Below are positions 25,438-59,559 of a stretch of DNA of 64,000 nt, piece by piece. The stretch comes from Favolaschia claudopus. Taxonomy: Eukaryota; Basidiomycota; Agaricomycetes; Agaricales; Mycenaceae. The translations under genes were made by a program, and so were the position numbers. The notes under the pieces are model-generated. The model did no database searches, was not told where the DNA came from, and was given only the letters and a program-made list of their open reading frames with translations. The stretch lies in NCBI GenBank assembly GCA_037176885.1, contig JAWWNJ010000188.1:186001-250000 (forward strand), written 5' to 3'. Position 1 is the first letter of the stretch, and each line of letters opens with the position of its first letter.

Positions 25438-27273
25438 TGATACGCGTGGTCAATTTTGCGCGTATTTATCTAGCTTTTGTAGTGACTTGTGGCACAAATA
25501 CCCATATTAGCTGCATGGCACTAAGGGCTTTACTTGACTATCAATAGGAAGTCAGTACTCCTGTTCATGGTGACTTGAAGGAGGATCAGAGTGAGCTCCG
25601 AGCTGCTGGTTGTAACGTTACTGGAGATAATCATAGAGGCCCGCGGCACACGGAGTAACCCAAGGTTTGGGTGTTGCAAGAGTAACAGATGAAGACTGAG
25701 TTGAAGTGCAGTCTGGACTTGTAGTAAAGCAAGACGGAACATCGGAGGAAGGCCCGCGGAGTATCCAAACGAAAGGTCTATGAGATGCATAGACGCCGCG
25801 GACCTGCCGAAGACTTACAGACGAGTTGCCGCACCAATGTACTTTGAACATAAGGGTGCCGGACGTTGGATCAACGGCAGGGTGATGCCTCAGATCTGGA
25901 ACAGTGATTGCGGACATCCATCATGTCACGGAGAATACTCCGCGGACTCGGCATGTACATCACGGAAGCACTTTCCTGTATGCCGCTGATGAGATAGTTT
26001 GACACTGAAGCATAGGAATGTCTTAGACGGTGATCTGATGGTCTGGAAACAGAACTAGAGATCTAGAAAGGTCTAGACGGAGTGGAGCAACCATATGATT
26101 TAGAGGATCTACATGGATGCCGGGGAGACACGTCGGAGCGGAACAGTGATACACATCCGCGGATGACCAAGATAGTGATTCAACCGTGAGATGGTCAGAA
26201 TAGATGACTTTTCATGGACGGATCGTGACGATTCAGAGCGGCAGACGGCTGCTAGACCTACGTATACCCAATCCCAACTCAATTGTTTCTGTATCTTGAC
26301 TCAGATTTGTTTACATCATGTATTTTCTTGGCATTAGTATAAAAGGCCATGTATTTCTCGTCGTTTGTCTAGTTCATCGCGCGCAGGTCATTGACGGCGT
26401 TGGTGTACTCAGGCAGGGACGTAGAGGCATTTAAATTGGAGTTATCTGCTTGCTAGTTTTTGTCTTCATTAGGAACGATTTGTTGAAGTTCAGACAAGTG
26501 TGAATTAAGACTTAAGTTTCTAGAAGCGTTCACCCGCGGAAACTTTGGACTGTGGAGTCTTGTCGTGGCATAGCCAACCCAGTAACCTTCCAAGGACTTG
26601 GCCCGTTTGAGCATTGCTCGCCCCCATTTACCAGTGTTGCGTTTGACTGGTCCACTTAACCCGCGGACTACTCAGAATCAGTTGAAGTGAAAGTGTGCTT
26701 AAGAGTGAACTAGTATCTCCCCAAGTTGAAGAGAGTAGACGATCTATCCGCGGACGCATCGTGTTCAGACTTGCCTGCACGTAACCTGACGGGATACGAT
26801 TAGTGCCTTGGAGCTTGTGCTATATAAAGGAGTGTCAAACGTACCTGAGAGCTTGGAAGTTCAGGTCTACAGTCGCAGTGGCACTGTAAGAAGTGTGTGT
26901 ACGAGGCATTTCTAGCAATTGGCTGGTGTCTAATATATTCAATTCGCCCTGACTGTTGGAGTTCCTCCCAGTCTTGTATCCTAAAAACCAATATACCTTG
27001 TTCATTGGAAAGTCCGCGGACGGATTTCCTCTAAACTATAGTCCGTAAAGAACTTGTTTTGCGTCAGTTCAGACCAGTAGACGAAGTTGAACTACATCTG
27101 GATTTCGGATTGGACCCCACGAACTCAATAGGAAGCACTTGGTGTATCTTGTTGAGACATATATAAGTGTTGGAGTGTTGTGTGTGTTGGTTGAGTTGTT
27201 TGTGTGTTTTGTAGTGGATTAGTCCATTGCGCACTTTGCATCTCATATCGATATATTCAAGTGCAGCGTTTCA
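25438..27273 (+). repeat. 5' LTR
   Basis: The LTR is 1836 bp, starts TGATACGCG and ends GCAGCGTTTCA. TATA-like boxes are TATAAAAGG at 26338-26346, TATATAAAGG at 26821-26830 and ATATATAAG near 27160, so the start of R is uncertain. Nine CCGCGG palindromes are present, at about 25641, 25754, 25796, 25940, 26157, 26534, 26661, 26748 and 27014. Small ORFs on the minus strand are the same in both LTRs but show no domain and are probably chance. Confidence 0.95.
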
Positions 27274-27275
27274 TC

Positions 27276-27296
27276 TGGAGCCCACCGCGAGGGATC
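27276..27296 (+). promoter_or_regulatory. Primer-binding site
   Basis: Two bases after the LTR the sequence reads TGGAGCCCACCGCGAGGG. It starts with TGG, the complement of a tRNA CCA end, as in most LTR elements. I did not identify the tRNA. Confidence 0.7.
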
Positions 27297-27351
27297 CATT
27301 TGTCTCTTGGTTGTTGAAGCAAAACAAGTTGCTATAGTTGGGAGAGTCTAG

Positions 27352-29214
27352 AAGAAGGACTTTCCGGGAAAAGTTGAACCAGTCAACATTTCCGCCCCTC
27401 GAAAACGAAAGAGTTCGGGGAAGAGCAAACACCAGCGTAGCCCGTCTCCATTAAATACCGGAGCAGGTTCAAGGAGTTTGCTAGAGCAAGCCAGGGTTGC
27501 ACTACAAGAACCCGCTCAAGCGTCGACTTCAAGGAGCAGTCTTATACCAGAGACAGTAAATTGGGGATCCTCGGCGTCTGGCAGAAAACCCCGTACGACC
27601 AAAAACTCCAGTACCGGACGGTCGTATAGTTCATCTCCTGTTCGCAGAAGAAGAAGAGCAAGTTCCGCGGAGGAATTAGACTTGACAGAAGCGTTTCCTT
27701 TCCAAGGACAGGCTATCCCTTCGGACGGCGAGCAGTCTGATCATTTGGATCAGAACCTTGAGGCTATTTCGAACTCAGTAGCCAATCAAAACCCCCTACA
27801 ACAAAACACTATGGCCCAGCATGTCGAACTAGATAAGACCAAGATTCCTGACTTGTTTGGGAGACATAACCTGAAGTTTGAAGATGACTCCGGGGATTTG
27901 CCCAAGTACTTGTCGGGGATTGAGGATCTGTTTGAAAAGCAGGGGAACATTAGTGACACAGCCAAAAAGTGGCTAGCGCAACACTATGCGAACAGTAAGA
28001 TCCAGAAAGAGTGGACTGCGTTGTCGTCCTATAAAACTGGAACTTATGAAGATTGGAAGACGGATGTGATCAATTCGTATCCAGAAGTACGAGCAGTTGA
28101 GAAAGGCTCCCGCGCGGGATGGGCCTCCTGGCTTAAAGGCTGGAGGAATTGTCCTGTGAGACTTGGCGAAGAAAATAAGTTGTCAACTTTTATTCGCGAG
28201 TTCCGCGGACGGGCAGGGACCATGAACCAAGATAGGGAATGGTTATCTCAGAGAGAGTTGGCGAGAGATTTTCTTGAGGGTATTCACCCTACGTTCAGAG
28301 ATGATCTCCGTTCAATTATCATAACCAAGTCTCCCACGGAGTTGGGTTCCTACCAGCGTGCTAAAAAGGAGTTTGAGACTGCAAATCCAGGCAAGGTGTT
28401 TAAGGCACCACAAACGCACCAGGATGATTTGTACGAGTGGACGGACTTCGAGGATATTTTGACGACTCTCATGAAGAACAACGACTCAATATTCTTTGGA
28501 GATACATCCGACGGAAGACGAAAAGCGACAGTGTTGTATGGAGCAGAAGAGGATGAAGGCGAGAAGTTGAAAGCTCGTCTTGATAGACTGGAGAAAGAGA
28601 CTCAGGCGAGTCAAGAGCGCATCTCCAAGGATGTGAAGGATAATGTCGAACAAGCACTTGCTGGACATCTGGATAAGTTCACCGCGGACCAGAAACAGAT
28701 TATGTCCAAAATGCATGAGGCTTTGGAGAAAGGCACGTCCAACAATCCGGGGAGGTCTGGCGATAGATCTGATTATAGAAGTCATAACACTGGTGACAAG
28801 CGTCCTAGAAGGGATGAGTGTTATTACTGTTGGGAGCTATATCATTATATTGGGAACTGCAAGGAGCGAGCGACGGACCTAGCGGGTGGAATTCTTTCCC
28901 TCTCCAAGGATGGAAAACTTCAGACCTTCGATGGGAAAAATATTCCTATTGAACCACGCAATAAAAGTCCGATGACCAAAGCGCGCGACTATTACAGTCA
29001 CCGAAATAATAGCTTCCTGCATGAGGATCATTTTGCTGTTTTCTTTACGTCGGCTGGTTCTACCGCGGCGGACGCAGAGCAAAGTTCAACTCCGCGGGAG
29101 TCTCCTGGGAACACGGGAAAGCCCGCGCAGGATGAACAAATTGCTAGGCTCGAAAACAACCTTGGGGAACTTAGGCAACTAATTCTTCAAGGAGGACGGG
29201 ATTTTACCCGGTGA
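27352..29214 (+). CDS. gag: Gag polyprotein
   Basis: The frame opens after a TAG at 27349-27351 and has no ATG until 27811, so an upstream non-AUG start, a leader splice or the ATG at 27811 must be used. An Arg/Ser-rich basic head (RRRRRASSAEE) precedes a helical capsid-like region (about 27830-28400: KYLSGIEDLFEKQGN, WLAQHYANSKIQKEW, FIREFRGRAG). A coiled-coil-prone segment follows (about 28560-28740). A CCHC knuckle (C-x2-C-x4-H-x4-C) lies at 28819-28860. It ends at UGA 29212-29214, and the frame stays open beyond. Confidence 0.85.
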   Translation, partial: KKDFPGKVEPVNISAPRKRKSSGKSKHQRSPSPLNTGAGSRSLLEQARVALQEPAQASTSRSSLIPETVNWGSSASGRKPRTTKNSSTGRSYSSSPVRRRRRASSAEELDLTEAFPFQGQAIPSDGEQSDHLDQNLEAISNSVANQNPLQQNTMAQHVELDKTKIPDLFGRHNLKFEDDSGDLPKYLSGIEDLFEKQGNISDTAKKWLAQHYANSKIQKEWTALSSYKTGTYEDWKTDVINSYPEVRAVEKGSRAGWASWLKGWRNCPVRLGEENKLSTFIREFRGRAGTMNQDREWLSQRELARDFLEGIHPTFRDDLRSIIITKSPTELGSYQRAKKEFETANPGKVFKAPQTHQDDLYEWTDFEDILTTLMKNNDSIFFGDTSDGRRKATVLYGAEEDEGEKLKARLDRLEKETQASQERISKDVKDNVEQALAGHLDKFTADQKQIMSKMHEALEKGTSNNPGRSGDRSDYRSHNTGDKRPRRDECYYCWELYHYIGNCKERATDLAGGILSLSKDGKLQTFDGKNIPIEPRNKSPMTKARDYYSHRNNSFLHEDHFAVFFTSAGSTAADAEQSSTPRESPGNTGKPAQDEQIARLENNLGELRQLILQGGRDFTR

Positions 29215-30564
29215 GGGAGACCCGATCACGGAAGGCTCCTGAGGAACCAAAGACGAAAGACCGTGAAGAAAATGATAAAAATACAAAAAAAACAGTCAGA
29301 CGAGCGTTCGAGTGGAAAGAAGTCCAAGAAGCCTGAGATAGAGAATCGAGTTGAAGTTGTAATGGAGAGAAGGAATCCCCCGCGGAGACCTAGAGTTACT
29401 GTGGAGGAGGTCAGCGACTCCGAGGACGAGTCAGCGGATAAGAAAAAGGCGACAGAGAAGGAACTTCCCTTCAAAGATGTTAAGCCTCTATCTGACCCCG
29501 CGCCTCGACCTGCACTACCCAGGAAACCCAATGATGAGCAACCTGTTAAGCCAGGACCAGTTGAGCGAAAGCCTCGAGCGCCGCGGGACACGCAGCGTAA
29601 AGATGCCGCTACGGCAGAAATTGTCAAGAGCATTCGTGATACTGTAATTCCGGTGAAGTTGGGGGCTCTCTTGGATAGTAATGACAACCTTCGTCGTACA
29701 CTAGAAGGCGGTAGCAAGAGGAAAAATAGGAGTCGGTTCTTGAAAACAACTTCAGGCGAGGTTATTCCAGCTAGGGTCCAGAATTTTATGGTTCAACGAG
29801 TCTCTGAAGAATCTGAGGAGAGCTCCGCGGACGAAGATGAAGGACTAGAAGATAATGTGCGGGAAGAAGAAACATCTTGTGTGACGGTTGACGAGTCAGG
29901 AGCGACTGTCTCAGTGCTATACTTTGACACCTACCCAGAGTTAGTTACCTCCGGGGACGGGGACCTTCCGCAAGGAAGTGTGATCTGTGGTGACCCAGTA
30001 TTGCAGTACTTTGAGTCGTTACCAGCTGGAAAAGAGCCTAGGAAGGTGAAGGTTCCTTCAGTGCCTTCCGCGGTGAATTCTGGAGGACTCCAGTGTGTTC
30101 GCCCAACCATAAACGGAAAATTTGTGGAAGCCATTACTGATAGTGGGTCACAAATCGTGTCCATGAATGCCACTCTTGCAGAAGAGCTTGGTCTGAAATG
30201 GGATCCTAAAATCGTTTGTGATATGGTGGCCGCCAACAACCAAACTCAGACAACCATGGGGTTGGCGAAAAATGTGCCGTTCAATTTCAATGGGATTGTG
30301 ATGTACCTTCAGGAGCACATACTACCAAGCGTTCCCTATGAGGTACTTCTAGGGAGGCCTTTTGAAATTTTGGCGGAGACAGTTTTCGCAAGCAAAAAGT
30401 CCGGCGAAGTCGAGGTTACAATTACAGATCCGTATACAGGACGCACTAGTACTTTTCCTACAGTGCCCCGCGGACGTAAATTTAATCGAGACACTGGAAA
30501 ATCTGAACCACCTGAACCTGCTAAAGCCAAACAGGATTTTCAGAGGTCTTCGAGGAACTCGTAG
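29215..30564 (+). CDS. Retropepsin-type aspartic protease region
   Basis: The region lies in the same frame as gag, directly after its UGA. The first ATG is at 29263. The long Lys/Glu/Pro-rich front half is probably disordered. The protease domain is at about 30090-30410, with the catalytic ITDSGSQIVSM (DSG) and the VLLGRPFEI C-terminal motif. It ends at a TAG at 30562-30564, overlapping the pol frame. Expression needs UGA readthrough, reinitiation at 29263 or splicing. Confidence 0.85.
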   Translation, partial: GRPDHGRLLRNQRRKTVKKMIKIQKKQSDERSSGKKSKKPEIENRVEVVMERRNPPRRPRVTVEEVSDSEDESADKKKATEKELPFKDVKPLSDPAPRPALPRKPNDEQPVKPGPVERKPRAPRDTQRKDAATAEIVKSIRDTVIPVKLGALLDSNDNLRRTLEGGSKRKNRSRFLKTTSGEVIPARVQNFMVQRVSEESEESSADEDEGLEDNVREEETSCVTVDESGATVSVLYFDTYPELVTSGDGDLPQGSVICGDPVLQYFESLPAGKEPRKVKVPSVPSAVNSGGLQCVRPTINGKFVEAITDSGSQIVSMNATLAEELGLKWDPKIVCDMVAANNQTQTTMGLAKNVPFNFNGIVMYLQEHILPSVPYEVLLGRPFEILAETVFASKKSGEVEVTITDPYTGRTSTFPTVPRGRKFNRDTGKSEPPEPAKAKQDFQRSSRNS

Positions 30565-33500
30565 AGGGGGGAGAAGCCACTGTAGCGTTTGAGTTGGATG
30601 AGCAGGGGCAGTTGATTTGCATTGGTTATGGATTTCCTAAGTCGGGTGATGTTGTGACGCAGGCAGACCGTCAAATGGCGTATTTGATGGCCTCTCAGCA
30701 GAGTTTTAGTGGAGATAAGGACGCCTCCGTTCTGTTGAACCAGTACGCTGGAACAATGGAAAAAGACAAGGGAATGGATATTTTCTTGTTTAAAGAGGAC
30801 GGTCCGCCGAGTAAGCCGAAGAAGCGGTCGAAAAAGTTGAACCGTGGAAAGAAGAAGAATGCCAAACGTAAGGCTAAGCGCGCGGAGGCGGCTCTTCTGA
30901 CGGCAGAGTCAACAAATGTGGCAGCAGGTGGTGCCGAGGAGCCGATTGATCCGGTCCGCGGACTACCGCCTAAAAATGTGGTTCACTTAGATTTGCCTGT
31001 ACCTGATACACCCAGGCAGCAGTTCGTAATGGAGCAGCTTGACCCCAAGCCTGAACCAGAGCGGGTGTTTGCTAACAAGTATAAGCCCGTGGCAGACAAA
31101 GTGAGGCCCATTTTAGGTCGAGTTGATGAGAAGTTTAGGATAGTGCGGAATATCACTGGTGATCCGCTGAAGGACATGCCGACGATCAGTCCGCATCCTC
31201 CAGAGTTTGCACCTATTGGGAGATATACCGCGGAGCGGAAGGAAGTGTTCGACAAAACTCATGATAATGGCTTCTTATTGCCAGAAGAAATGAAATTGTT
31301 GAATCACTTCATGATGGAGCATAATCAGCATTTTGCTTGGGAGGAAGACGAGCGTGGACAATTCAAACATGAATTTTTTCCGCCCGTGGACATGCCTGTG
31401 GCGCCTCATACGCCTTGGGTATGCTCGCAAATTCCAATTCCCCCCGGACATTTTGATGAGTTCTGTCGCATCATTAAAGCTAAAATTGATGCCGGCGTGT
31501 ATGAACCTTCGAACTCGTCTTACAGATCGCCGATTTTTGCTGTCATCAAGAAGGATGGAAAATCTTTACGGATTGTACATTCGTTGGAGAGGCTCAATGA
31601 AGTAACCATTCAACACTCTGGAGTGCCCCCGGGTACTGAGAAACTGGCAGAACATTTTGCTGGCAGAGCTTGTGGTGCTGCATTGGACATGTTCGTTGGA
31701 TATGATAACAGGGATCTCGCAGAATCCTCCAGGGATTATACTACGTTCCAGACACCTTTTGGTGCGCTGAGGCTAGTTAAATTACCCATGGGTTGGACAA
31801 ATTCTGTTCCTATCTTTCATGATGATGTTACCTATGTCTTGAGAGATGAGATTCCGCATGTTACAATACCTTACATAGACGACGTACCGGTCCGCGGAGG
31901 TCCAACGAGGTATGAGACGGGAGACGGAGATTGGGAACGGATTCCAGAAAACTCCGGCATTCGCCGATTTGTGTGGGAACATGTTCAAAATTTGAACCGT
32001 ATTGTTACTCGCATGAATTATGCTGGTGGAACGTTCTCAGGGAAGAAGTTGGTGCTCTGCGCTGATGAGTTTGAGGTGGTAGGACATTTATGTTCGTACC
32101 GCGGACGTCTGCCGGATCCCAAAAGGATTGATGTGATAAACAATTGGGGCCCCTGCGATACTTTTACGCAAGTAAAGGCATACTTGGGTACTGTTGGAGT
32201 CTTGAGGAGCTTTATTGAAGGGTACGGTGACATAGTCGCACCTATCAATGATCTTACCAAGAAAGACATCGTCTTTAAGTGGACCGCGGAGTGTGATGAG
32301 GCGCGGGCAAGGATTAGGCAGAGGTTGAAGGATTGCCCCGCGCTCAAGCCTTTGAGATACGATTGGCTTTCAGATATAGTATTACAAGTGGATACGTCTT
32401 GGCGAGCTATTGGTATAATTATCTACCAGCTTGACTCAGACGACCCTAAGAAGAAATACTATGCGCGGTTTGCGAGTATAACGCTGGGGCAAACTGAAGC
32501 AAACTACTCACAACCCAAACGTGAATTGTATGGGATGATGAGAGCTCTTGAAGCCATGTACTACTGGATTTTCGGAGCAAGGAAGCTTGTGGTTGAAACC
32601 GATGCGTTGTACATCAAGGGCATGTTGAAAAATCCTGGAATGGGTCCAAATGCTACAATAAACCGTTGGATTGAGAAAATTCTCATGTTCCATTTTAAGT
32701 TGAAGCATGTTGCTGGCGAAAGGTTCGCCCCCGATGGATTGTCAAGGAGAGATCCTTTCCCCGGGGATGAACAGTTCAAAAACTCCGAGGAGGGCTATGA
32801 TCAGAATGAGCCTCCCGAGGACCATGAAGATGTTGTAACGGACGGGCAACAGCCCTTGGAATTTGAAGAGTTTAAGCACCTTATTGATAAAAGGGGTGGT
32901 TACCTTCTAATGGAGCCTGAAGCGTTGAGTGTTGAAGATTTCGCGGAGGAGTGTATGCTCGCTGCGTCCGCGGAGGCAGACATCGCAAAGGCAAGGCAAG
33001 CGGCCTATGAAACGGATGGAAAATCAGTTCCAGAGTATATTCTAATGATGGAACCATTAATTCCTGACTTAGAATTGAAGTGGAACAAAGATAAGCGTGA
33101 ACCGTATGATGAAGAGCATCGCACGGAGTGGATGAAAAAGAGAGACGCAAAGTTACCATTAATTAAGGAATGGTTAGCGGACCCTTTAATAAGGCCCGCG
33201 GGGATGAATGACGACCAAGAATATCGAGCTTTTGTCCGCTCTGCCTCTCATTTCTTTTTGAAAGGGGGGAGGATGTATAAAAAAGCGATTGGAATGGCTC
33301 ATCAATTAGTAGTTGACAAGGAACACCGTATGTTTATGATGAAGGCTGCTCATGATAGCCTAGGACATCGCGGAAGTTATGCCACTACGGAGTTAATTTC
33401 ATTGAGATTCTGGTGGCCAGGATTGGAGTGTGACGTTTATTGGTATGTGGCGACTTGCCTACCATGCCAAAATAGGCAGCACACCTTGATCAAAGTCCCG

Positions 33501-34059
33501 CCTGTGGTAACGGATACACCAAGTCTTTTCCAAGTAATCCATACCGATGTGATGGTGATGGGACAAGTCTCAAATAAATGCGGACTTGTGGTTGATGCAA
33601 GGGACTCGTTGAGTTCCTGGTTAGAGGGAAGACCATTAGTAAGGGATTCCGCTCAGGCAATTGGAATGTTCCTGTTTGAAGATATTATCTGCCGTTGGGG
33701 TTGCCCAAAGCGGATTGTAACGGACAACGCGGGGCAGTTCAAGAAAGCCGTGGAGTGGTTGAGGCAGAAATATGGAATAGCCAATGTTCAAATTTCGCCT
33801 TATAATTCGCAAGCTAATGGCAAAATTGAGTCTGGACACTTTCAAATGAGACAAGCGTTGTTCAAGGCGACTGGAGGGAACCCCGCCAAATGGTTCTGGT
33901 TCTTCCATGTGATGCTTTGGTCCGACAGAGTCACAGTGAGAAAGGGTCTGGGGTGTTCACCATATTTTGTGGTAACAGGAGCGCATCCAATATTACCGTT
34001 GGATGTTGAGGAAGCAACGTGGTTAGTGGAGTTGCCAGACCGAGTGTTGACCACCGCGG
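30525..34059 (+). CDS. pol: Pol polyprotein, 5' part: reverse transcriptase, RNase H, integrase core
   Basis: The frame lies -1 relative to the protease and overlaps it from 30525 to 30564. The sequence GGATTTTC at 30534 could serve as a slip site. RT lies at about 31380-32000, with LPMGW and catalytic YIDD (near 31875). RNase H spans about 32390-32740 (QVDTS, ETDALYIKG). The integrase has HHCC (HDSLGHRG and CLPCQ, about 33350-33470) and DDE (HTDV near 33545, VTDN near 33720, KIESGH near 33830). The frame is cut by a TG...CA insertion at 34060 and resumes at 35392. Confidence 0.9.
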
Positions 34060-35387
34060 TGAAACGCTGACTATAGGGCAACTATGGAAAACACCCAAGA
34101 AATGAAAGGAATTAAATCCCTAATCAAATCTTAAATATAATCCTAACCACTATGAGATCGACGTGCGAGGTTCGGGGTTCCAGTCCAGTATAGACTGTGG
34201 CAATCCAACTATTCTAACAGTCAAAATATACTAACTTAAGCTTTCGCGATTGCTGACTTTGTACAGAGAACGTCTATACGAGTCCTATGTTGACACAGGA
34301 AGTGTGGGTTTCAACAAGGGTTTGAGATGTAACTCTTCTCAAGAGGTTTAGGTGTTTAAGTCGCTTGTTAAGCCAATATATTCCACGCGTAAGATGTCCG
34401 ATAACTGTTTCACGCGTCCCGTAGGTCAAAAGTTCTTATAATTCCACGCGTAAGTTCCCAAAATTTCCAATATTCCACGCGTACAATTCAAGAGATGATC
34501 CAACAGACAATATATATTGACGAAACAAACCAAAGAAACAAATAAGCTTCTGGAGTTTATCTCGAATGGAGTCCAACGTCTAGTTGTTCACGAAGCCGAC
34601 ACTGGCTTGACGCTCACAGCTAGAGGAGGGAATCCACTAGAGTACCAGTACAGAAACGATGCCTTTTATACCTTTCACTAATAAATAATAAGAGACCGAA
34701 CCATTGACAAACGGGTATAATGTGAGAGAAACTAGGGCCCGCTATGCCCTCGCCCTATCCTTGGTGGCCAGAACAGGAAATAGATCAAAGGTTCATTCAA
34801 TCCAAGTCCTTATCCCGATCATTATGTTATGACAGTGGGCCGCAGCGGCCCAATCAATATTGCCCAACTTGGCAGTAATACCCTTGGTATCATTGTCCCT
34901 CTTCGGACCTTGCTCCGTGATCGTAATACGGCGGCAGCCAACTTGGCATGACGTGTAGTTCCTTTGTAGGAATATTCTACTTCCGCAAATCCCTCGCAAT
35001 TGGTTTATAGAATTATTCGTGAAAGCCTCTTGCCTCCAGGAAACACTCCTTCTGGCCTTTCGGCAGGTTCTTATAAGTCCCAAGTTATATCCCACTCATT
35101 CTGCCTTTGGTCGGAACACAGGGTGACTCCCAATCCTATTCCGGATGGTTAGAGACCTATCGTGATAGGTCTGTTCTGGAATATTATAACTTCCACGTTA
35201 TACCAGCGCAGTCGTAGACAGTGCCAGACCTCCCACTTAGTGTATAATCCTTTAACTGGCCGCTCAGGCAAACGCCAGTCCTCATACGAGCGTATTCCCG
35301 TGGTATTTAATGTATTACGCTTTTAATACAATAGCACTTGGACTGAAAATGAATAAATTCAGCCCTGGCCCAATACCGGGTCTATCA
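34060..35387 (+). mobile_element. Solo LTR of another retroelement, inserted in pol
   Basis: The insertion is 1328 bp, begins TGAAACGC and ends GTCTATCA. The target duplication is GCGG at 34056-34059 and 35388-35391. Removing it and one GCGG rejoins pol exactly as VLTTAELIGYRAQA. There is no coding sequence and not a single CCGCGG. It carries a cluster of ACGCGT boxes, listed separately. Confidence 0.9.
34385..34482 (+). promoter_or_regulatory. Four ACGCGT boxes
   Basis: ACGCGT lies at 34385, 34412, 34446 and 34477, three of the four inside TTCCACGCGTA. Spacings are 27, 34 and 31 bp. ACGCGT is the MluI cell-cycle box bound by the Mbp1/MBF family at yeast G1/S genes. Its role here is inferred. 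Confidence 0.6.
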
Positions 35388-35391
35388 GCGG

Positions 35392-36026
35392 AGCTCATTG
35401 GGTACCGTGCGCAAGCTCTAGCCAAGCATGTCTCCCATGTTGAATATATGAGAGAGCGTGTTGACCATGCAAAACGACTGGCAGTTCAGAAATTTGAACG
35501 GAACCATAAGCATGCAATCAAAGGCTATGACTTTAAGCCGGGAGATTTAGTTCTGGTGCGACACACGGAGGTAGAAAAGTCATTGAACTCGAAAATGGAA
35601 AAGAAAGGAAGGTACCTCGGACCTATGGTTGTGATAAGACGCACCAAGGGAGGAGCGTATATCCTTGCGGAGATGGATGGGTCTTTATTCCAAGACAGAA
35701 TCGCTGCAGGAAGGGTAGTCCCTTACTTAGCGAGGGAACGAATCCAAATTCCGAAGAACATTCAAAAGTTCATTGATATCTCTACGGAGGCATTGGAAAA
35801 ACTAGTAAACAACGAGCCCGCGGAGGGTACAGAAGAGAAGAATAAAAGGTCTAAGAAGTTAAATGACATTGCCTTCGACAAAGTCAACATCAGGGTATCG
35901 CCCCAAGACTTCGAGGATACAGAATCTTCACAATCTGAATCTGAAAGCGAGGAGGAAGAGTCGTTTGGACTAGATGATGAACAGGAACGAGTGGGCCCGC
36001 GGAGGTCCAGGAGAAATAGAAAGTGA
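35392..36026 (+). CDS. pol: Pol polyprotein, 3' part: integrase C-terminus
   Basis: This part continues the integrase after the solo LTR. It has a helical linker (VEYMRERVDHAKRLAVQKF), then KPGDLVLVRHTEVE and a GPY/F-like fold (GRYLGPMVVIRRTKGGAYIL). An acidic and Ser-rich tail and a basic RRSRRNRK end follow. The TGA at 36024-36026 directly touches the stop of gene A on the other strand. Confidence 0.9.
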
Positions 36027-36981
36027 TTAAAGGTTGTGGCCATATTTGCCCCTACCGAACAAATAATCATGAGTATATTTCTTGGAAAATATGGAACGAA
36101 GACGTACTTGTCGGGAGATTCCACGGACTTGGGATGGATCCCCGGAGGAATGAGTTCAGTGATGCGAGCTAAGACGAGCTCCTTAGCAGAGTCGTCGTAC
36201 ATGTTGATGTCGAGTTCTTTGCGGAGGTAGGCGAGTTCGTGAACATCTGTGATCTGAGAAAGAGCTTGAACGAAGCCTTCCTTACGATACCGGATGCCCC
36301 GCTGAAGGAAGTAGAAAGCGAGGTCGAACTCTTCTGCGAGCTCACCAAAGTGGAACTTGTCGTTGCCAAACATGATAACTGGGGGGGGGATTCAGCAATG
36401 AATAAAACCCCGCGGAGAATTTTGGAAACGTACCAGGGCCACCGCGCTCGTGGAAAACGGTGAACATATTGTTCTGCTCAGTAAAAGGGCAAGTGCGAAA
36501 CTTGCGGAGGCAAGTATCGCAAGGAGCGCCCCAAGCCTGAGGATTACAAGTCCTAGAACCGTGCTCCGCTTCGCAGCAAGAACAAGCAGCAGTAGGCTGG
36601 AAGAATTCCCCTGAGTAAGGAGCGAGATTTTGGAGAAGAGCAGAAACGCACCTTGTTATCCGCAAGGAACGCAAGCGTATAGCGGAGACGTTCGCGGACC
36701 TCCAGAATCTTGGGCTCCCTAGTGGTGGATGCATCGTAATTGTAGCCAAAAACGCTACGAAGAGCACCTATCTCATCCATGGGGAAGAAAGGAGCGTCCC
36801 ACTCAGGATGAGGCGAAGGAGTGGAGTAGTAGTAGTCGCCGTAGTCAGGTGGTAAATTCTCCTCGTCGTATGGGTCGCAGCACATAAAAAGAGCGGAAGG
36901 GGTATTTGGGATTTGGAAGCTCCGCGCAGCTGTCTTTAAGTCAGGCAGGGCTGCTGAGACATTACCCAGCACTTTGGACAC
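36027..36981 (-). CDS. Cassette gene A: Zn2Cys6-like zinc-cluster protein
   Basis: Four exons in phase (36981-36652, 36596-36434, 36378-36108, 36051-36027) give 262 residues. Exon 1 is acidic and Tyr-rich (DPYDEENLPPDYGDYYYS) and ends FLADNK. Exon 2 opens with a cysteine cluster, C-x2-C-x8-C-x8-C-x2-C-x6-C (CSCC ... CDTCLRKFRTC), close to the Gal4-type binuclear pattern. Exon 3 is a helical region (FDLAFYFLQRGIRYRKEGF, ELAYLRKELDIN). Donors of introns 2 and 3 read GTACGT, and intron 2 contains a CCGCGG. The gene is convergent with pol. A homologue of exon 1, including the donor after DNK, is at 63774. DNA binding is inferred. Confidence 0.75.
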
Positions 36982-37431: not shown

Positions 37432-39728
37432 GACCGCAAAAAGTAACTTGAGGCGGCTAACTTGTACTTTGATGGCTGCTTCCCCTGGCTGAGCGTACTT
37501 TACTTAACTTTACTTGACTTGACATAACTTTTCCCGCGCTTGGCAAATCTAACTTGTACGTAACTTGTACTTGCACGCTTGTAATATTATCACTAAGATA
37601 CAGTAGGATACAGTCATATCCCATCTCTGTGATCCTTGGGCCCTTATCCTACGAGTTTGAGTTCTTCCTGTTAGTTGCTTACCTGCTAAAATGATGTTGT
37701 CTCTCATGTTGCGATCTCAGTATTGGCTGATCGTGAGATTACAAGGTATTCTAATGGGAACAAAGTTAGCCAGAGTTGAATCGAGTACTCATTCACCATT
37801 TGAACGACCTCGGCGTGCTCATAGGGTGTGTTATTGGTCGGGTTAACTCCATATTGCTGGTAAAAATTAACCAAACATCGGGTAATTGATCAAACCTAAC
37901 TTGAAGCACCGATTACGGTGCGAGACAGACATTGGGCACCGATTTTTGCTTTAATGTGCTCGAATGTAACTTGCGCGTACTAATCTTGGCTTCCGGTTGC
38001 CTCTCTATACTTCGATTGACTTTGATGCGCTTATATCTCGATCCACGGGAACCCGCAATAAGCTTCGGTGCTATGGAATCATCCCGGTTACCGATGTTTT
38101 ACTCGAGTTGCACTTTTATGAAGCTTTCTTAGGGCTATCGCGTCAAGGCATTCATCAGTCCTATTAGTTGATAGTAGTCGTTCAAGTTAGCGCGTAACTT
38201 ATGTTTACTTGGAGAGTACTTTACTTGGCTCCGTACTTGACTTATACTTAGAGTCTGCTTTAGCTTGCACTGTACTAAACCTTGTACTCTACTTGTACTT
38301 GGGTATTTTGCTTCGCTTGACTTACTGTGGAGTTTACTTGGCGGCTCAAGCAAACAGTGGTGTACGTAGCTTAACCTAACTTTTACTGTACTTGACTTTA
38401 TCTAAGTCAACCTTTCACTGTACTTGCTTAGTGACTTACTTGCCGCCCAAAGCTCGCATCATCGTAGCCGAACTTGCGGCACAGTTTTGAAGGTACGCCA
38501 ACGACTGCACGGCAAGATGCGGCATGCACCGGGTCTCGGCATCTGTCGGCCTTTGTTCGGCGGCAAGTTGAACATGCAAGTAAATGTTTGAGCTAGGGTG
38601 TTGAGGGCTGAGGGACTGAGAGTTTCATCTCAAGTGCAGATTCCTGTACTCCCCTCGCATGATATCAGTCAACTATAACTATACTGACCCAATGTTCAAC
38701 CGACTACATACTATTCCGCATGATTCAAACATTAGGAATTTTACCCCACAAGATAACTAGAAGCGTGATAATTAGGGTAATATCACTGTCTCAATACCAT
38801 AGCAAAGTATATCTTTGAGCCGAATACTTGTTTAGAGTATTTCCCTTCACATAATTAATCGAGCCCTCCTTGATGCTACATTGGTTTACTTAGTAGAACA
38901 CTCAGGCTGTGACTTGTATTTAACTCAACTTAACTTGTCAAGTGAGCTTACTTTACTTTACTTAGCTTGACATGTACTGCTTGATCTACTGGGTACTTCG
39001 AAGGCCCAGCGTTGGAGCTCAAGAAGGCAAATGATCTCATTCAACTGACAGAATGAGATCGAGCCTTGAGTCGCGATGGTATGATCTCAATCAATTTTCA
39101 ATAAAGTGAGGCGGCGGCTGGGTGCTTAGAAGTGACGGCTCGATGCTTCCAGAAAGTTGGATCGAGGCATACGTGCGTCTCCCAGGTAATTTGAGGGATA
39201 TCATGCTAAAAAGTAAGTTCAACAAGTTCACCCGAGTAATTTTCGTTGAGTATCCCCCGTCAAGTTAGATCAGCACAAGCACTCACTTATCTGATACCAT
39301 TAGGTAGTTTAAACCGATTTGACTTGTTCAAAGTTCCTACCATCCGACTTTCCACCCACCGATGAACAAATCTTGGTTGAACGATTCAATCCCGCTATCA
39401 CTATCATGACTATTACACAGAGCCATCGGATTGATCCATAAGTTCAGGCCTATTATCACTCAAAACACTTACAATCCTCATTTCTAGCAGATTTAGAGGT
39501 ATACAAATGAAAACATGGAGACAAGTACAGTAAAGTATAGTAAAGTACACCCAAGTAACTTTCGTTGATCGCGCCCGCCAAGTTAGATCAGCGAAAGTTA
39601 CTTGGGCCATCAGATGGCATCAAATACTTGCGGGATTTACTTACCAAGTTAACATGCCCAGCCATAAGTAAAGTAAAGTTAGTTTTGGCAGGACAAGTTA
39701 AATTTTCCAAGTTACTTTGGTAACCGTC
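37432..39728. mobile_element. 2.3-kb MULE-type non-autonomous transposon
   Basis: Ends are GACCGCAAAAAGTAACTTG on the left and the complement of GACGGTTACCAAAGTAACTTG on the right. The 11-bp flank CTGAAATACGA is duplicated at 37421-37431 and 39729-39739. Long 9-11-bp duplications suit the Mutator group. Subterminal sequence is rich in ACTTGACTT and AAGT repeats. There is no transposase and no CCGCGG. It sits between genes A and B. Confidence 0.85.
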
Positions 39729-39869: not shown

Positions 39870-41569
39870 TTAAGGCTGCGAGGGCGCGTTAAGCTGAGAC
39901 CAGTGCGCAAAGAAGAATTTGCGTACACCATGCGCACTGTGCGGACGACGGATAGGCCTGTCATCAGGATACTTCTGGTAGAAGTCCAGTGTAAGCTTCT
40001 CGAGATGGTCGTCGTACTTATTGTATTCCGACAACCAGAAGCGAAACTTGAAGGCCGCGGAGCGCATGCTGTGGCGAAGAAACTCCGACTGAGTACGAAA
40101 GTCGTGGGGATCCATTTCTTCAGCATGGACATTGGCGTTATGAACCGCTTTGTCCATGATCGCAGGGTCTGTGATGACAATGAGATCATGATGAAGATCT
40201 ATTGAATAATGAGGTGAATAACGGAGTAAGGGACGTTGAAACGTACTCGGGAAAGTGGGTTCGTGGAGCATATCGACTGCCGCGTCCGCCAGACGAGTAC
40301 GCTTGCGACCACGAGCGGCATCATCAGGATCAGCGATCTCCGCGGGAGGCTGGGGACGAAATCAGTGAAAGGGAGTTGTATAACGAAAAATTGGACTCGC
40401 CTGAAGGCCCGCGGGAGGTTCCACCTAGTACGACTTGCGTATTAGAGGGATTCAACCGTGAGAAGTTGATTACGTACCATTGAGTCGTCCTGGTCGAGAA
40501 AGGCTTGTTCCTCTTGAGCGGCCTGAGCTCTGAGCTTGCGCTGAGGAAAAGAAATTTTCAGTGAGTAGGGTGCATGGAGATGGAGCGTACAACAGTGCGA
40601 CAAACGTTTTGGAACATCTCCTCTGGAATCGGATCGTCAACGATTTCAACTGACGCATCGCGTTTCTTGTGCGCCTTACCCTCGGAGATTTTGGAGTCCT
40701 TGGGTTTGACGGGGCAGGCGTCAATACCGTGTTGAGTCGATGAGCAAGACCCACACACGTTGATCTGCTCGAGAAATTAGATGGACGGACAAGAAAAGAG
40801 AGAATAAAGCGGAGCGTACTGTTCCGCGGGAGTTATTCTTCTTGTTGTTCTTGCCACCGTTGGTCTTGTTGAACGAAAGACCTCCGGGGACCGCGCCAGA
40901 ACCTGCACGGTAATTGGCCCCGTACGCGGCAAGCAAGTAGGGAGTAATATTCATACCTTCCTCCTTGTCAATGTCCATCTGTAGACGATTAAAGTGAATC
41001 GTAAGGTGGAGAACGCCTAGAGAATACCTGGTCAGCGACAGACACCTCATCCGCGGAGTCGTCACCGTCGGTATCCTCGGCAGCCTCCTTGGACTTGTGC
41101 TGAAAGGGATAAGTCAGTAGAGAAGCTAAAAAAGAGGGATAAAATAACGAGGGCACACCTTGGCCTTTTCGTCCTTCTTCTTTTTCTTCTTAGCATTGTG
41201 GTAGCGGTTGATCAACTGGTTGAGTGTAACGTTGTGGCTGCTAGGAATGCGGAAGCCGTGCTCATTGACAGCGAGTTGAAGCTGGTCAGGGAGTCCTAGA
41301 ATGATCTGGGTGACGGTAGCATTCTGGGGATGCTGGAGCGCGGAGGCCATTGGGAGAAATCCGGTCTGGAAGAAACCCCGCGGGTCAGCATAGTAGTGAG
41401 TAGCGGAGTGTAGCGGACGTACGACGCGGTCGAGCACCGTGTCGAGCGCTCTGTTGCAGATCGCATCCGAGAATTTCGCCTTTCGGAGACCACGATATTC
41501 AGTGTGAGCCGCTTGAATGCCTTGGATTGCTGTCTGGAGTGCAGGCGGAGGGTGGCGGTCAGGCGCCAT
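39870..41569 (-). CDS. Cassette gene B: Gag-like protein with CCHC zinc knuckle
   Basis: About eight exons join by short introns, most with GTACG donors. Exon 1 starts MAPDRHPPPALQTAIQ at 41569. The next exon (about 41160-41365) is capsid-like (GFLPMASALQHPQ, IILGLPDQLQLAVNEHGF, LNQLINRYHN) and ends in a Lys run. Later come an acidic exon, MDIDKEEGMNITPYLLAAYG, and a knuckle CGSCSSTQHGIDAC (C-x2-C-x4-H-x4-C) near 40740. DDPIPEEMFQNV follows, then a basic RGRKRTRLADAA, then a helical C-terminus (FRTQSEFLRHSMRSAAFKFRF). Two introns hold CCGCGG. The knuckle and helices suggest a nucleic-acid-binding, Gag-derived protein. A homologue lies at 62284. Confidence 0.75.
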
Positions 41570-42611
41570 TGCATGGAAGTGGTCAGAACTAGACGAAGTT
41601 TAGCGGAGCGGACCTCTGGCTTTTATGTGCAAAAGGTCCGGGGAGTTACGATAACTTGGTTACAAAGGCGCAAATCGTTGGAACACGCCAAGACGCATGG
41701 CAACTCAATTCTTTCGCTGATATAACTGCATGCGAGGACGCATGTTTTATTTTAGTTGGGGGGAGAGAGGGAGCCAAGACACGGAGTGGGCGGTGTGCCG
41801 TCCGCGCGTCCATGCGTCTGTTACCATATCTAGGCTTGGAGAAATTTGTTTCACCAAGAATAGGCGATTGAGGCCGATGTTTTCAAAATCGGAAGTCATG
41901 GAATCCTGATTGGGAGGATATTGATGATCGGTTTCTACATGCAGTGACTTGCGACACTGATTGATGGAGAGCCGCGGAGACGCGTCAGACGGCAGGTCCC
42001 CGGAGTTCACCAGGAAAATAAGGTGGCGAGAGCTAGCAGGAAATTGAAGATTCAATGAGACTTCATTACTTGAACAAAAGTTGAAGTTGAAACTCCACGG
42101 AGCAGAATCGTGCAAAGAGTTAAGAAGTGGAAGTCTTGCTGCTATGAAACCAGTAATTTGAATTGAAGATCGACATATGATGACTCAATTGGAATTATAA
42201 GAGCGGTTGGGACTTGGTGAAATTCGCACTTGGTTGAAAAGCTGAGTGGCGGAAATCACCGTGATCGGATCATATTGGATGGATCCGTTGATCGGCCGGA
42301 AAGAAAAAGTTGCCGGAGTCCGAGAGACCCAGGCGCTGAAACAGGCGCTAACGTTGGCGCTAAAGTAGGCGCTAAGACATCTCTCATAAGGAAAAAGGTT
42401 CACACGGTTGAATCAAGTACAACGATTTGGCGCCTTGGGCGCTAATGCATTCATGGGTCGTTTACATGTTTACAGGAAATTCTACCTAAAGTGGGTAAAC
42501 TATGTAAACGACCGGGGACGACTATTATATATACAATTTTTGGCTTGTTTCAACGCTGAAGCCTACAGCACGACGAGCAGATTATTGTATGTAGATAAAA
42601 GAGTCCAAAGT

Positions 42612-45126
42612 TCACGACGAATCAGAGTCCGACTCTTGATGGCGCGTGGAACGGCGCAGCTGCATCCCACCGGTGCTGGATCCCTCTTCAAATTCTGGGC
42701 GCTTTCCCTTGTCAGATGCTTTGGCCACTTCGGCGGGACCAAACGAAGGTTTGTCCGGCGGAGCAGACGCAAAGATCGCAGCAATATCTTGCGACAAAGG
42801 GGCGCTGGAAGGATCGACCTTTGAAAAATCAACCGACGACGACAGCTGAAAGTCGGGATTTGCCAAAGGCCGAGGAAGGGTGCCCGGCGCCAGGGAGGAA
42901 TCAACCCGACCAAACGATGGTGCGGGGACAATGCGCGTGGACAACAAAGGGGCGTACGTGCCGCGAGTCCCGGGGAGCGCGTCGTCGGGCGGAGGAATCA
43001 CCGAGGACGTTGGGTGATCCGCAACGGTGTCGTTGATGGCGGCCTGTTCCAAGACGTTCTTGAAGTAGGCGTCCGCGATCCGCCGCATGCGATCACCATC
43101 CGAGGAGTCCTCAAACATGCTGTCAAAGGCAGCGTCGACCATGGCGGAATCGGAGTTGCGGATGGCAACAGCGACGTCTTGCGCGGCCAAATGTTGAGCA
43201 CTGAGCGAGCGAGCATGAAGAAGCGCAGTGTATTCCGCGTCGACCGTCGTCTGGTAGAGGCGCTGCAGGAAGGAAGCCATTGAATGAGGCGCAACGTTGT
43301 GATAAGGACAGATGTGCTCGAAGAATTTCATTAAGTCGGCTGGCGTCCAGTTGAAGGAACACTTCTCCTTGCGGAGCGCGCAGCGAATGCAAGAAGAAGA
43401 ACGGGTGGAGCGATCGATGCCGGGGCAAGTGATGAAGTTGAAGGCGCATTCCGTACAAGGGAGCGCCTCGGGATTGTACAACGGCGGGTTGAGTGCGTCC
43501 GTGACGTAATGATGCGGAATGCGCATCAGCGCGGGAGTCGGTGCGCCCGCCTCGGGAATGGAATACAAAGCGTCGGTGATCTCACCGCGGGAGGAGATCT
43601 CGATAACTCGCGGATCCGCCGCAGCAGGAACGACGCGTGGAGGAGAAGACACCTCAACACGACGACGTTTCTGGGGCAGGGTCGACTCAACGACGGAAAC
43701 TGACGCGCCTGGGTCAGCTTCGACATCGGAATCGGCAACGAATTTAGCACGAGCAGGGGCCTTGAGAATGTGAGGAAGACGAAAGTCCGGAGAAATGATG
43801 TCGGCACCCTTGTCGATGTTGTATTTTTGGCGGAAGGCAAGGACGGGGCGGCCAGCGCGGTATGCGTCGAGGAGAAGTTTGGGAGACTCCATCTTTGAGT
43901 TAACGAGCCCTTCGTGAAGGCATTTAAGGAGGCGAGCTGTGGTCCAGAGAAAGAATTCAACCTCGTCGGGAATTTCTTCGCGTTCACGATAACTTTGCTG
44001 TAGAAATACAGCATAGTTAGCCAACTAAACTTGTGGTAAGCGGGCCGTCGCGTTGCGCGGCAAAACTCGTACTTTTATTTTATTTTTCCCGCAAGCAGCC
44101 GAAAGCAAACTGATAAGATAATGTTATCACTGTCCGCGTGAGCGGATCATAACCAAAATCCTCCTTGACAGCGCACACCTCCTTCCGTTCTCTCATCTTC
44201 TTGGACCCTCGAGCTCGTTCAAAGCTTTACAACGGCATACAACAGCGTCAAGGCCTTCACAGATGTATATGACACCAATGCCTTCAATATCACGGCTGGC
44301 ACTCAAATCGGCAGGCGGCGGCACGGGATACGGTACGAGAATGACAGCGATCATTTGAAATTCAACTGTGCTGCGATTAGCAAAGTTGGTTTGCTCAACG
44401 TCGTAAGATGAAGTATTGTCTATTGTCCTTATCCAGCATGCCAAATAGCTCACTGACCTTCAGATTTTGGAAATCTCAGCGTTCACGGGAAAATGATTCA
44501 ACTCCTTGGCGGCTTGACAGGCATTGGAACACGTCGGCGTGGAACCATCAATAAATATTCTGTAAGTTAAGGTTAGGGTCTATTTCACCGAGTCAAACAT
44601 CTCTCACGGTCACAAAAGCGAAAATCATTAGCTTTCTTTCTAATGGAATTCAGACACTCATTAGAAAAAGCGTGGGAAAAAAGCGCACTTTTCGTTGTCC
44701 GTTTCGTGAGGACACAATTTCCGGACCCTCTCAAACGTCATTTGAGAAGTGAAAAGAACGAGTACATAAAGTACTCGTAAATGGAAAAGGAACAAAAAGG
44801 AAACGTACCAAGATGGGAGCGAACTTCTTGGCTCTCTTCAGCTGAATCTCGAGAGCGGGCTCCGGGTCCAAGTACTCAAGTTCGAGGAAAGCTCGGGAGC
44901 GTTTGTTGTCGAAAGGTGCCCAGAACGGAGCGCGAGGATCGGAAGCGGCCAACGAAGCAGGCATCCCGGCCAAGCGCAGACCGGCAGGCGACAAGAGCGG
45001 ATTCATACGCGTGTCGGCTGGAGGAGGAACTGGTGCTGGGGCAGAGACTGGCGCTGATGGCGGAGCCTGCGGCGGTGGTGGTCCAGGACGATTGCGAACG
45101 GTTTTCTTGGGAGACGACGGCGGCAT
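42612..45126 (-). CDS. Cassette gene C: Zn2Cys6 zinc-cluster protein
   Basis: Exon 1 (45126-44809) and exon 2 (43997-42612) join in phase 0 and give 567 residues. The N-terminus is Pro/Ala-rich, followed by PFWAPFDNKRSRAFLELEY. Exon 2 has a helical part, a basic QKRRRVEV patch and, at residues 287-319, C-x2-C-x6-C-x11-C-x2-C-x6-C, which fits the Gal4-type binuclear zinc cluster. Helices follow (FLQRLYQTTVDAEYTALL), then a long Pro/Ser/Asp-rich tail that ends in RRSTRHQESDSDSS. The intron has swollen because a 738-bp repeat lies in it. A TATA-like box is near 45320. It is the best candidate to bind CCGCGG. The known family role is transcription control; the actual role here is unknown. Confidence 0.8.
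44040..44777 (-). mobile_element. Non-autonomous repeat element, copy 2, in the intron of gene C
   Basis: It matches copy 1 (19797-20835) at both ends and along most of the right part. TAA flanks both sides (44037-44039, 44778-44780), a likely 3-bp target duplication. It lies wholly inside the gene C intron and leaves donor and acceptor intact. It contains no CCGCGG. Confidence 0.8.
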
Positions 45127-45539: not shown

Positions 45540-45620
45540 CAGACCTAGGGTTGAGGGTTTAGAGGGTCAGCGAGTGGTCCAAGCGAGTAATCGCGAGCGT
45601 AGGGTTAGGGTTAGCCAAAG
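45540..45620 (+). repeat. Short telomere-like TTAGGG tract
   Basis: TAGGGTTAGGGTTAG at about 45600 and degenerate AGGGTTGAGGGTTTAGAGGG at 45545 lie in the spacer between gene C and the 3' LTR. TTAGGG is the common fungal telomere unit. The tract is too short to claim function. Confidence 0.4.
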
Positions 45621-45950
45621 AAAAATTGGGACTCTACCGAGAAATGAGCGGAGGAGTGCAGACAGAGTGTACACCCCTGTCCTGATAAAAGTCAGACAGA
45701 AAGTGTCAATTACGTAATGATCGACGTCCGCGGAGGCAATTGTCTAAAAATAGATTTTGCTGAGCGCAAGTTGAGACCAACGGACTTGGTTGAATTCTGC
45801 TTGCGGATTCAAAACCAGTAGACGGTGAAAAAGTGTGCATGTGTGTAGGCGCTATAAAAATAGAACGTCTAGCTGGACGCAGTCAGTCCGCGGACCACTC
45901 AATATCTAGTACACTGAGGGCTACAAATGGTAGACCGAGGACGGTCTAGA

Positions 45951-45966
45951 TTTAGTGAAGGGGAGA
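45951..45966 (+). promoter_or_regulatory. Polypurine tract
   Basis: GTGAAGGGGAGA directly precedes the TG of the 3' LTR, the expected place for plus-strand priming. Confidence 0.75.
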
Positions 45967-47802
45967 TGATACGCGTGGTCAATTTTGCGCGTATTTATCT
46001 AGCTTTTGTAGTGACTTGTGGCACAAATACCCATATTAGCTGCATGGCACTAAGGGCTTTACTTGACTATCAATAGGAAGTCAGTACTCCTGTTCATGGT
46101 GACTTGAAGGAGGATCAGAGTGAGCTCCGAGCTGCTGGTTGTAACGTTACTGGAGATAATCATAGAGGCCCGCGGCACACGGAGTAACCCAAGGTTTGGG
46201 TGTTGCAAGAGTAACAGATGAAGACTGAGTTGAAGTGCAGTCTGGACTTGTAGTAAAGCAAGACGGAACATCGGAGGAAGGCCCGCGGAGTATCCAAACG
46301 AAAGGTCTATGAGATGCATAGACGCCGCGGACCTGCCGAAGACTTACAGACGAGTTGCCGCACCAATGTACTTTGAACATAAGGGTGCCGGACGTTGGAT
46401 CAACGGCAGGGTGATGCCTCAGATCTGGAACAGTGATTGCGGACATCCATCATGTCACGGAGAATACTCCGCGGACTCGGCATGTACATCACGGAAGCAC
46501 TTTCCTGTATGCCGCTGATGAGATAGTTTGACACTGAAGCATAGGAATGTCTTAGACGGTGATCTGATGGTCTGGAAACAGAACTAGAGATCTAGAAAGG
46601 TCTAGACGGAGTGGAGCAACCATATGATTTAGAGGATCTACATGGATGCCGGGGAGACACGTCGGAGCGGAACAGTGATACACATCCGCGGATGACCAAG
46701 ATAGTGATTCAACCGTGAGATGGTCAGAATAGATGACTTTTCATGGACGGATCGTGACGATTCAGAGCGGCAGACGGCTGCTAGACCTACGTATACCCAA
46801 TCCCAACTCAATTGTTTCTGTATCTTGACTCAGATTTGTTTACATCATGTATTTTCTTGGCATTAGTATAAAAGGCCATGTATTTCTCGTCGTTTGTCTA
46901 GTTCATCGCGCGCAGGTCATTGACGGCGTTGGTGTACTCAGGCAGGGACGTAGAGGCATTTAAATTGGAGTTATCTGCTTGCTAGTTTTTGTCTTCATTA
47001 GGAACGATTTGTTGAAGTTCAGACAAGTGTGAATTAAGACTTAAGTTTCTAGAAGCGTTCACCCGCGGAAACTTTGGACTGTGGAGTCTTGTCGTGGCAT
47101 AGCCAACCCAGTAACCTTCCAAGGACTTGGCCCGTTTGAGCATTGCTCGCCCCCATTTACCAGTGTTGCGTTTGACTGGTCCACTTAACCCGCGGACTAC
47201 TCAGAATCAGTTGAAGTGAAAGTGTGCTTAAGAGTGAACTAGTATCTCCCCAAGTTGAAGAGAGTAGACGATCTATCCGCGGACGCATCGTGTTCAGACT
47301 TGCCTGCACGTAACCTGACGGGATACGATTAGTGCCTTGGAGCTTGTGCTATATAAAGGAGTGTCAAACGTACCTGAGAGCTTGGAAGTTCAGGTCTACA
47401 GTCGCAGTGGCACTGTAAGAAGTGTGTGTACGAGGCATTTCTAGCAATTGGCTGGTGTCTAATATATTCAATTCGCCCTGACTGTTGGAGTTCCTCCCAG
47501 TCTTGTATCCTAAAAACCAATATACCTTGTTCATTGGAAAGTCCGCGGACGGATTTCCTCTAAACTATAGTCCGTAAAGAACTTGTTTTGCGTCAGTTCA
47601 GACCAGTAGACGAAGTTGAACTACATCTGGATTTCGGATTGGACCCCACAAACTCAATAGGAAGCACTTGGTGTATCTTGTTGAAACATATATAAGTGTT
47701 GCAGTGTTGTGTGTGTTGGTTGAGTTGTTTGTGTGTTTTGTAGTGGATTAGTCCATTGCGCACTTGGCATCTCATATCGATATATTCAAGTGCAGCGTTT
47801 CA
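45967..47802 (+). repeat. 3' LTR
   Basis: The LTR is 1836 bp and lies 20529 bp from its partner. I see four differences from the 5' LTR, all after 47640. All nine CCGCGG sites are kept (about 46170, 46283, 46325, 46469, 46686, 47063, 47190, 47277, 47543). Confidence 0.95.
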
Positions 47803-59551: not shown

Positions 59552-59559
59552 TGTAGTAG

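Follow-up and report, generated by a model that had tools for sequence, protein, structure and literature searches.

CCGCGG palindromes throughout a Ty3-type retroelement of Favolaschia claudopus and a related family, and a variable accessory gene

Results

A Ty3-type retroelement with three antisense genes

We analysed a window of 64,000 nucleotides on contig C188 of the 264.6-Mb assembly of the mushroom Favolaschia claudopus. A long terminal repeat (LTR) retroelement of the Ty3 type occupies positions 25438-47802 of this window. Its pol and 3' LTR are separated by three antisense genes, here called A, B and C, and the hexamer CCGCGG recurs along the whole length of the element. The LTRs are ~1.84 kb long with TG...CA ends and differ at 4 of 1838 aligned positions (99.8% identical). 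The Ty3 assignment follows from the paired TG...CA LTRs with a 4-bp target duplication and from the domain order protease - reverse transcriptase (RT) - RNase H - integrase, in which the RVT_1 profile scores below its cut-off (23.6 vs 29.6 bits). The element limits given in an initial annotation of the sequence were right; the duplicated target is ACGA. The features of the element are listed below, with nested insertions recognized in part as gaps against the C227 and C28 copies of the same family (ORF, open reading frame).

25434..25437 (left copy) and 47803-47806 (right copy), no strand: target-site duplication ACGA, flanking the element on both sides
25438..27273, plus strand: 5' LTR, 9 CCGCGG, from comparison of the LTR pair
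27478..29214, plus strand: gag-like ORF, 5 CCGCGG, knuckle C-X2-C-X4-H-X4-C read by eye
29263..30564, plus strand: protease ORF, 5 CCGCGG (gag-asp_proteas, 32.3 bits, cut-off 28.2)
30594..34059, plus strand: pol part with RT - RNase H - integrase, 8 CCGCGG (RT_RNaseH 49.2 and Integrase_H2C2 59.3 bits, above cut-off; RVT_1 below)
34060..35387, no strand: nested insertion 1, 0 CCGCGG of its own; it splits a CCGCGG site of pol and shows as a gap in alignment with the copies on C227 and C28
35388..36026, plus strand: integrase tail, 2 CCGCGG
36017..36885, minus strand: gene A, three approximate exons (36652-36885, 36435-36611, 36017-36379), drawn by eye and from the sister-family homologue
37435..39728, no strand: nested insertion 2, 0 CCGCGG (gap against the C227 copy)
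39873..41569, minus strand: gene B, several exons, CCHC-type knuckle C-X2-C-X4-H-X4-C read by eye
42573..45121, no strand: hypervariable module, for which C227 and C28 carry a diverged C allele, 1 CCGCGG at 43585
42612..45126, minus strand: gene C, exon 2 42612-43997, exon 1 44809-45126, the intron holding nested insertion 3
44025..44790, no strand: nested insertion 3 in the gene C intron, 0 CCGCGG, limits approximate, repeat partner at 20596-20838
45967..47802, plus strand: 3' LTR, 9 CCGCGG

A Pfam search with the gag-like ORF gave no match above a family cut-off. The CCGCGG site broken by nested insertion 1 (34040-34062 and 35385-35400) is whole in the C227 copy, and GCGG flanks the insertion on both sides.

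CCGCGG is enriched in all parts of the element

The complete element with both LTRs holds 53 CCGCGG and 17 copies of the 8-mer TCCGCGGA, exactly the figures that the initial annotation had given as approximate. For comparison with chance, one LTR and the nested inserts were excluded and 500 dinucleotide-preserving shuffles served as the null. The remaining sequence contains 44 CCGCGG (shuffle mean 3.08, maximum 10) and 13 TCCGCGGA (mean 0.26, maximum 3), and CCGCGG ranks first among all hexamers (44 vs 3.1 expected, log10 p ~-34), so that the excess survives the shuffling test proposed for it. The density is ~1 CCGCGG per 400 nt, ~14-fold above chance in two diverged families. Every part contributes: observed and expected numbers are 9 vs 0.1 in the LTR, 18 vs 1.0 in gag-pol and 15 vs 2.0 in the cassette of genes A, B and C, with a single site in the gene C stretch 42573-45121. 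As originally described, the sites are found in LTR, gag, protease, pol, introns and spacers alike. They occupy all three codon frames when the four plus-strand ORFs are taken together, and a codon-frame cause was rejected for this reason; in pol alone, none lies in frame 0. They are distributed slightly more regularly than chance would place them (p 0.08 and 0.04; p 0.19 and 0.014 in a bin test).

The three nested inserts (4,315 nt) contain no CCGCGG and the window outside the element contains 11 vs 9.2 expected, which bears out the contrast drawn in the initial annotation. Four of these 11 (62622, 63086, 63159 and 63503) fall in 62391-64000, a reversed piece that is 85% identical over 1.4 kb to the cassette of the sister family described below. 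Fifteen random 10-kb genome samples (150 kb) gave 33 CCGCGG and 1 TCCGCGGA, which is background. Genome-wide, TCCGCGGA occurs 4423 times and its reversed control 2551 times, and among the first 50 places of TCCGCGGA on contig C1, 16 lie within a single 30-kb stretch, the sister family. Equal enrichment in unrelated elements that lack A, B and C would have spoken against a system proper to this one. None was seen in the sequence compared: besides the site-free inserts and the background samples, the three integrase matches listed on C1 (150 scored of 1278 candidates, 8-mer only) have none of the listed TCCGCGGA within 12 kb. The top palindrome in 20 control segments (the 15 samples and 5 window segments) is CTTAAG, with 13 vs 1.7 expected. 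Among the sequence examined, these data support an enrichment of CCGCGG confined to the window element and its sister family.

The CTTAAG case belongs to a short element with 62-bp inverted ends (L018:51-1401), whose palindromes lie near the ends only, an ordinary contrast.

The motif is a strict, spacerless everted CGG pair

CCGCGG had been described as an everted CGG pair. We scanned everted, inverted and direct CGG pairs at 13 spacings each, and the sole strong departure from expectation is the everted pair at spacing 0: the window element has 44 against 3.2 expected, and the sister element 42 against 3.0. The arrangements that come next deviate little, for instance direct pairs at spacing 11 (15 vs 6.7) and, in the sister element, direct pairs at spacing 0 (14 vs 5.9). 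The 18 one-letter neighbours of CCGCGG sum to 84 vs 63 expected in the window element and 68 vs 58 in the sister element; CCGGGG (10 vs 3.5) and CCGCGC (8 vs 2.7) are modestly raised in the former and CGGCGG (10 vs 3.5) in the latter. A half-site or a looser motif was rejected because the remaining spacings and most neighbours are near background. The strict CCG-CGG order at spacing zero suggests that both halves are required, as expected of a DNA-bound dimer.

The same palindrome could be a signal in RNA, with CCGCGGA in the genomic transcript read by a zinc knuckle of Gag or of B in packaging or dimer formation. This would account for sites throughout the element, including the introns of antisense genes, and knuckles can be seen by eye in both the gag ORF and B. 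The plus strand of LTR and gag-pol also leans to CCGCGGA (22 A-only vs 4 T-only, two families summed), with p 0.0005 against an even split, a value that leaves strand composition unaccounted for. However, the cassettes show no strand lean (9 vs 6, p 0.6), a perfect DNA palindrome needing both halves is unexpected for an RNA signal, and predicted accessibility and local folding of real sites equalled those of planted sites in six of six comparisons (all p > 0.1). We therefore regard an RNA signal as quite unlikely.

Sites turn over between two families while their density is kept

Identity between the window element and the sister family on contig C1 is 61% for the LTR and 70% for gag-pol. The sister element (L009-L013, C1 ~23.1-54.6 kb) has three LTRs separated by two inside parts, of which the second is shortened. 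It carries 42 CCGCGG vs 2.9 expected. The A/B/C cassette is present in both families, and the sister cassette holds 19 CCGCGG vs 1.7 expected though its DNA barely aligns to that of the window. Of the aligned window sites, 14/29 are common to the sister, where all-hexamer conservation is 12-18%. That 42 sites are found in the sister despite this divergence and partial sharing indicates that density was kept while new sites were gained.

In the better-aligned parts, 10/18 CCGCGG are shared vs 16/78 all-GC hexamers (p 0.006) and vs 39/114 two-CpG hexamers (p 0.11). Pooled sharing is 20/34 vs 78/263 (p 0.0015), but the one-way tests are preferred because the pooled test counts identical shared sites from both sides. 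Taken together, the alignments indicate that CCGCGG is maintained by selection beyond inheritance, its density constant while individual sites turn over. The sites might instead have accumulated through mutation, gene conversion or composition, with no reader involved. The two families are related, so that part of the sites is inherited, and nothing favours this account directly; the composition nulls fail, new sites were gained in the sister and one-letter neighbours stay near background, all of which make it highly improbable.

Candidate reader proteins in the cassette

The initial annotation took A and C for Zn2Cys6 proteins, an assignment that is supported in part for C and not supported for A. 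The C protein has six cysteines, CX2CX6C...CX2CX6C, invariant in 7/7 proteins, with Zn2Cys6-like spacing and predicted helices after the cluster. A model of a C fragment weakly resembles GAL4-type domains. The full-length model was set aside at a mean predicted local distance difference test score (pLDDT) of 44. Sequence searches of the PDB with C gave no match. Weak Pfam matches of C to PIN_9 (2/7 proteins, best E 0.0088) and DEAD_assoc (1/7, 0.0024) were judged to be chance. Searches with C returned at least eight different proteins, all labelled Favolaschia claudopus among the matches listed, and C may well be more widespread than that; between the window and sister families the C proteins are ~30% identical.

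Gene A has a six-cysteine stretch, CX2CX8CX8CX2CX6C, without conserved basic residues (LRKFRTC in the window element, LIQFHPC in its sister-family counterpart); Pfam returned nothing for it at E <= 10. In two exons the sister-family homologue is 44-45% identical. The best profile for gene B is a Lin-28A-like zf-CCHC_2 at 15.5 bits, below the cut-off of 27, and a search with the B protein gave no match among the candidates listed, which leaves room for a wider presence.

Gene C is exchanged between near-identical backbones

Across gag-pol and gene A, the copies on C227 and C28 match the window element at 97-98% identity; for the LTR the figure is 98.6%. From 42573-42577 to 45121, the ends of gene C, the DNA aligns poorly, and the C protein found there is 44-47% identical to that of the window; 0.5 kb past the gene C start, identity is intermediate (~76%). 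The block 42573-45121 is replaced when the window is set against copies L029 and L031. Synonymous divergence in pol is 0.06-0.20 with a ratio of nonsynonymous to synonymous divergence (dN/dS) of 0.01-0.06 (4 copies), and in C exon 2 it is 1.5-2.0 with dN/dS of 0.09-0.26 (3 copies). High synonymous divergence in C and low in pol, at low dN/dS, points to old, constrained C alleles on young backbones.

This pattern is general. We collected 36 copies, the window included, in which gene B is at least 93% identical (97-99% in 32/36). The DNA of gene C is at least 94% identical in 4 of them, 81-84% in 11, 70-71% in 8 and 64-66% over part in 4, and was undetected in 9. For 7 of these 9 a short degenerate pattern locates a C homologue at the expected distance; of the other stretches, C92 has one 18 kb away and C16, whose stretch was read, showed none. 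In the reported genome description, the F. claudopus genome is 265 Mbp with 86.8% of BUSCO genes duplicated (PMC10905254), so some of the copies counted may be two haplotypes of a single locus. The sister family behaves likewise: in at least 19 copies, paired among the matches listed (40 per list), C is at least 93% identical in 5, 76-81% in 7 and 72-74% in 7, with pol at least 98% in all. Sites outside C are near-unchanged in the three copies compared closely (18/19, 18/19 and 17/18), even though their C proteins are 44-48% identical to that of the window and differ in the residues around the cluster. By these comparisons, gene C is a hypervariable module exchanged between near-identical backbones in both families, which adds to what the initial annotation had described.

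In lambdoid phages, immunity regions are exchanged with their repressors, and the operators change with the repressor. A regulatory gene swapped as a block between near-identical genomes is common to that system and this one, but here the motif outside the swapped block stays constant. Gene C might be an allele-specific repressor or interfering factor acting against copies with the same C, from which rare alleles escape, with CCGCGG as a common operator. Consistent with this, each family has several deep lineages of C on backbones that are nearly identical, the swap limits coincide with the gene C ends, and C is under purifying selection (dN/dS 0.09-0.26). No allele-specific target was found, the operators are constant and host-driven diversification predicts the same pattern, which leaves such a repressor distinctly unlikely. 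By the same phage analogy, it is conceivable, if unlikely, that a fixed CCGCGG address and old exchangeable C alleles sort the retroelements of a single genome into immunity or compatibility groups.

A proposed docking site for a CGG-reading dimer

We give about even credence to a reading in which selection maintains CCGCGG all along the element as the place where a dimeric CGG-reading protein docks and marks the element as self. Such a dimer would read two back-to-back CGG half-sites and load along the full length of the retroelement. This reader is probably encoded by the element, either C, through its Zn2Cys6-like cluster and helices, or the more constant A or B. The bound protein may keep the copies expressible or regulate them otherwise. 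C could have a role beyond the address, as in partner choice, as an effector or as the target of a host counter-measure, under diversifying or frequency-dependent selection. The initial annotation had proposed self-recognition or anti-silencing; of the two, self-recognition is plausible and anti-silencing hypothetical. Its underlying observation was sound and its interpretation partly right, with support from the enrichment, the zero-spacing pair and the shared cassette.

Several observations weigh against the docking-site reading. The motif is constant, whereas C, the strongest candidate for its reader, varies more than any of the other proteins; the inter-cysteine residues of C shift from RKEK to THKS-like between alleles. 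Since residues of the C cluster change while the motif is fixed, C may not be the sole reader, or its alleles may share specificity and differ in recruits or partners. C also scores below the cut-off of Pfam Zn_clus (PF00172), at 7.4 vs 21 bits, with 3/7 proteins matching at E <= 10 (best 0.89); Foldseek gave no match for it at E <= 0.001, and unrelated helical proteins outrank GAL4 for the C fragment model in VIA. A symmetric dimer does not predict the CCGCGGA strand lean. Close copies retain 85/96 sites vs 587/666 two-CpG controls, no better, and 85/92 vs 587/728 in the opposite direction; this is from 9 of 12 comparisons (L002, L005 and L008 left out), including decayed L030 (C47) with 1/6 sites kept. 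Retention is thus high and not clearly above that of the two-CpG controls. Finally, the reader could be a host factor.

The main rival is indeed a hijacked host regulator: a Zn2Cys6 factor of the host, similar to Pdr1/Pdr3, would read CCGCGG and activate an element that has gathered such sites, and A, B and C would act otherwise. The 8-mer TCCGCGGA is identical to the yeast pleiotropic drug response element (PDRE), a spacerless everted CGG pair bound by Pdr1 and Pdr3, as described in the cited account (PMC11111045), and a host reader would fit with a C that varies beside a motif that does not. But the PDRE is described there as a host promoter element in few copies, and here site density in gag-pol and the A/B region equals that of the LTR and is not promoter-limited. 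The functional yeast variant TCCGTGGA of the same account (PMC11111045) is not enriched in the retroelement, its tolerated core CCGTGG occurring about as often as expected (4 vs 3.7 and 4 vs 3.1), and cassette and motif are both common to two families. On balance a host reader seems unlikely.

Comparison of the docking-site reading with known systems

The VANC proteins of Arabidopsis VANDAL elements, which the initial annotation had named as a parallel, form an anti-silencing system whose targets differ between related families, as far as the cited reports describe it (PMC5735166, PMC10398659). The likeness to the system so described lies in a mobile element whose own copies are enriched in a short motif, with element-encoded accessory proteins and motif density as a mark of self. 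In contrast to VANDAL, the present element is an LTR retroelement with unrelated proteins; its motif is dispersed, also in coding DNA, whereas the VANC motif is reported from non-coding tandem repeats; and the same top hexamer serves two families with ~30% identical C proteins and is kept across C alleles. Motif enrichment in own copies thus carries over, and co-change of motif and reader and tandem-repeat placement do not. The comparison fits in logic by analogy and not in membership, because element class, motif placement and co-evolution differ.

Sireviruses, Ty1/copia elements of plants, carry CGG-CCG palindromes clustered in the LTR (PMC2829016), and so resemble this element as LTR retroelements with repeated palindromes of CGG and CCG. 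In that source, most of their motifs lie within the LTR ahead of the TATA box, and the letters vary between elements; here a single fixed hexamer, CCG-CGG, extends over a whole element of Ty3 order. We found no report of this system in the literature searched, nor of a retrotransposon with Zn2Cys6 and CCGCGG.

If the reader is element-encoded, this would be self-recognition by an LTR retroelement of a fungus, outside both the kingdom and the element class of VANC, with an address that extends through coding DNA. The swapped gene C would offer a natural experiment of a single backbone and a single address with many readers or effectors. Two questions become testable: by what means an element labels copies of itself across many kilobases, and whether members of the same family compete through accessory-gene alleles.

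Other features of the window

Perfect 81-nt inverted repeats, 298 nt apart, lie at 20087-20546 and resemble a small inverted-repeat element. Unlike the remaining window, the stretch 56001-60000 is strongly depleted of CpG (observed/expected 0.36-0.44); it surrounds an ORF of 970 aa on the minus strand that contains internal repeats.

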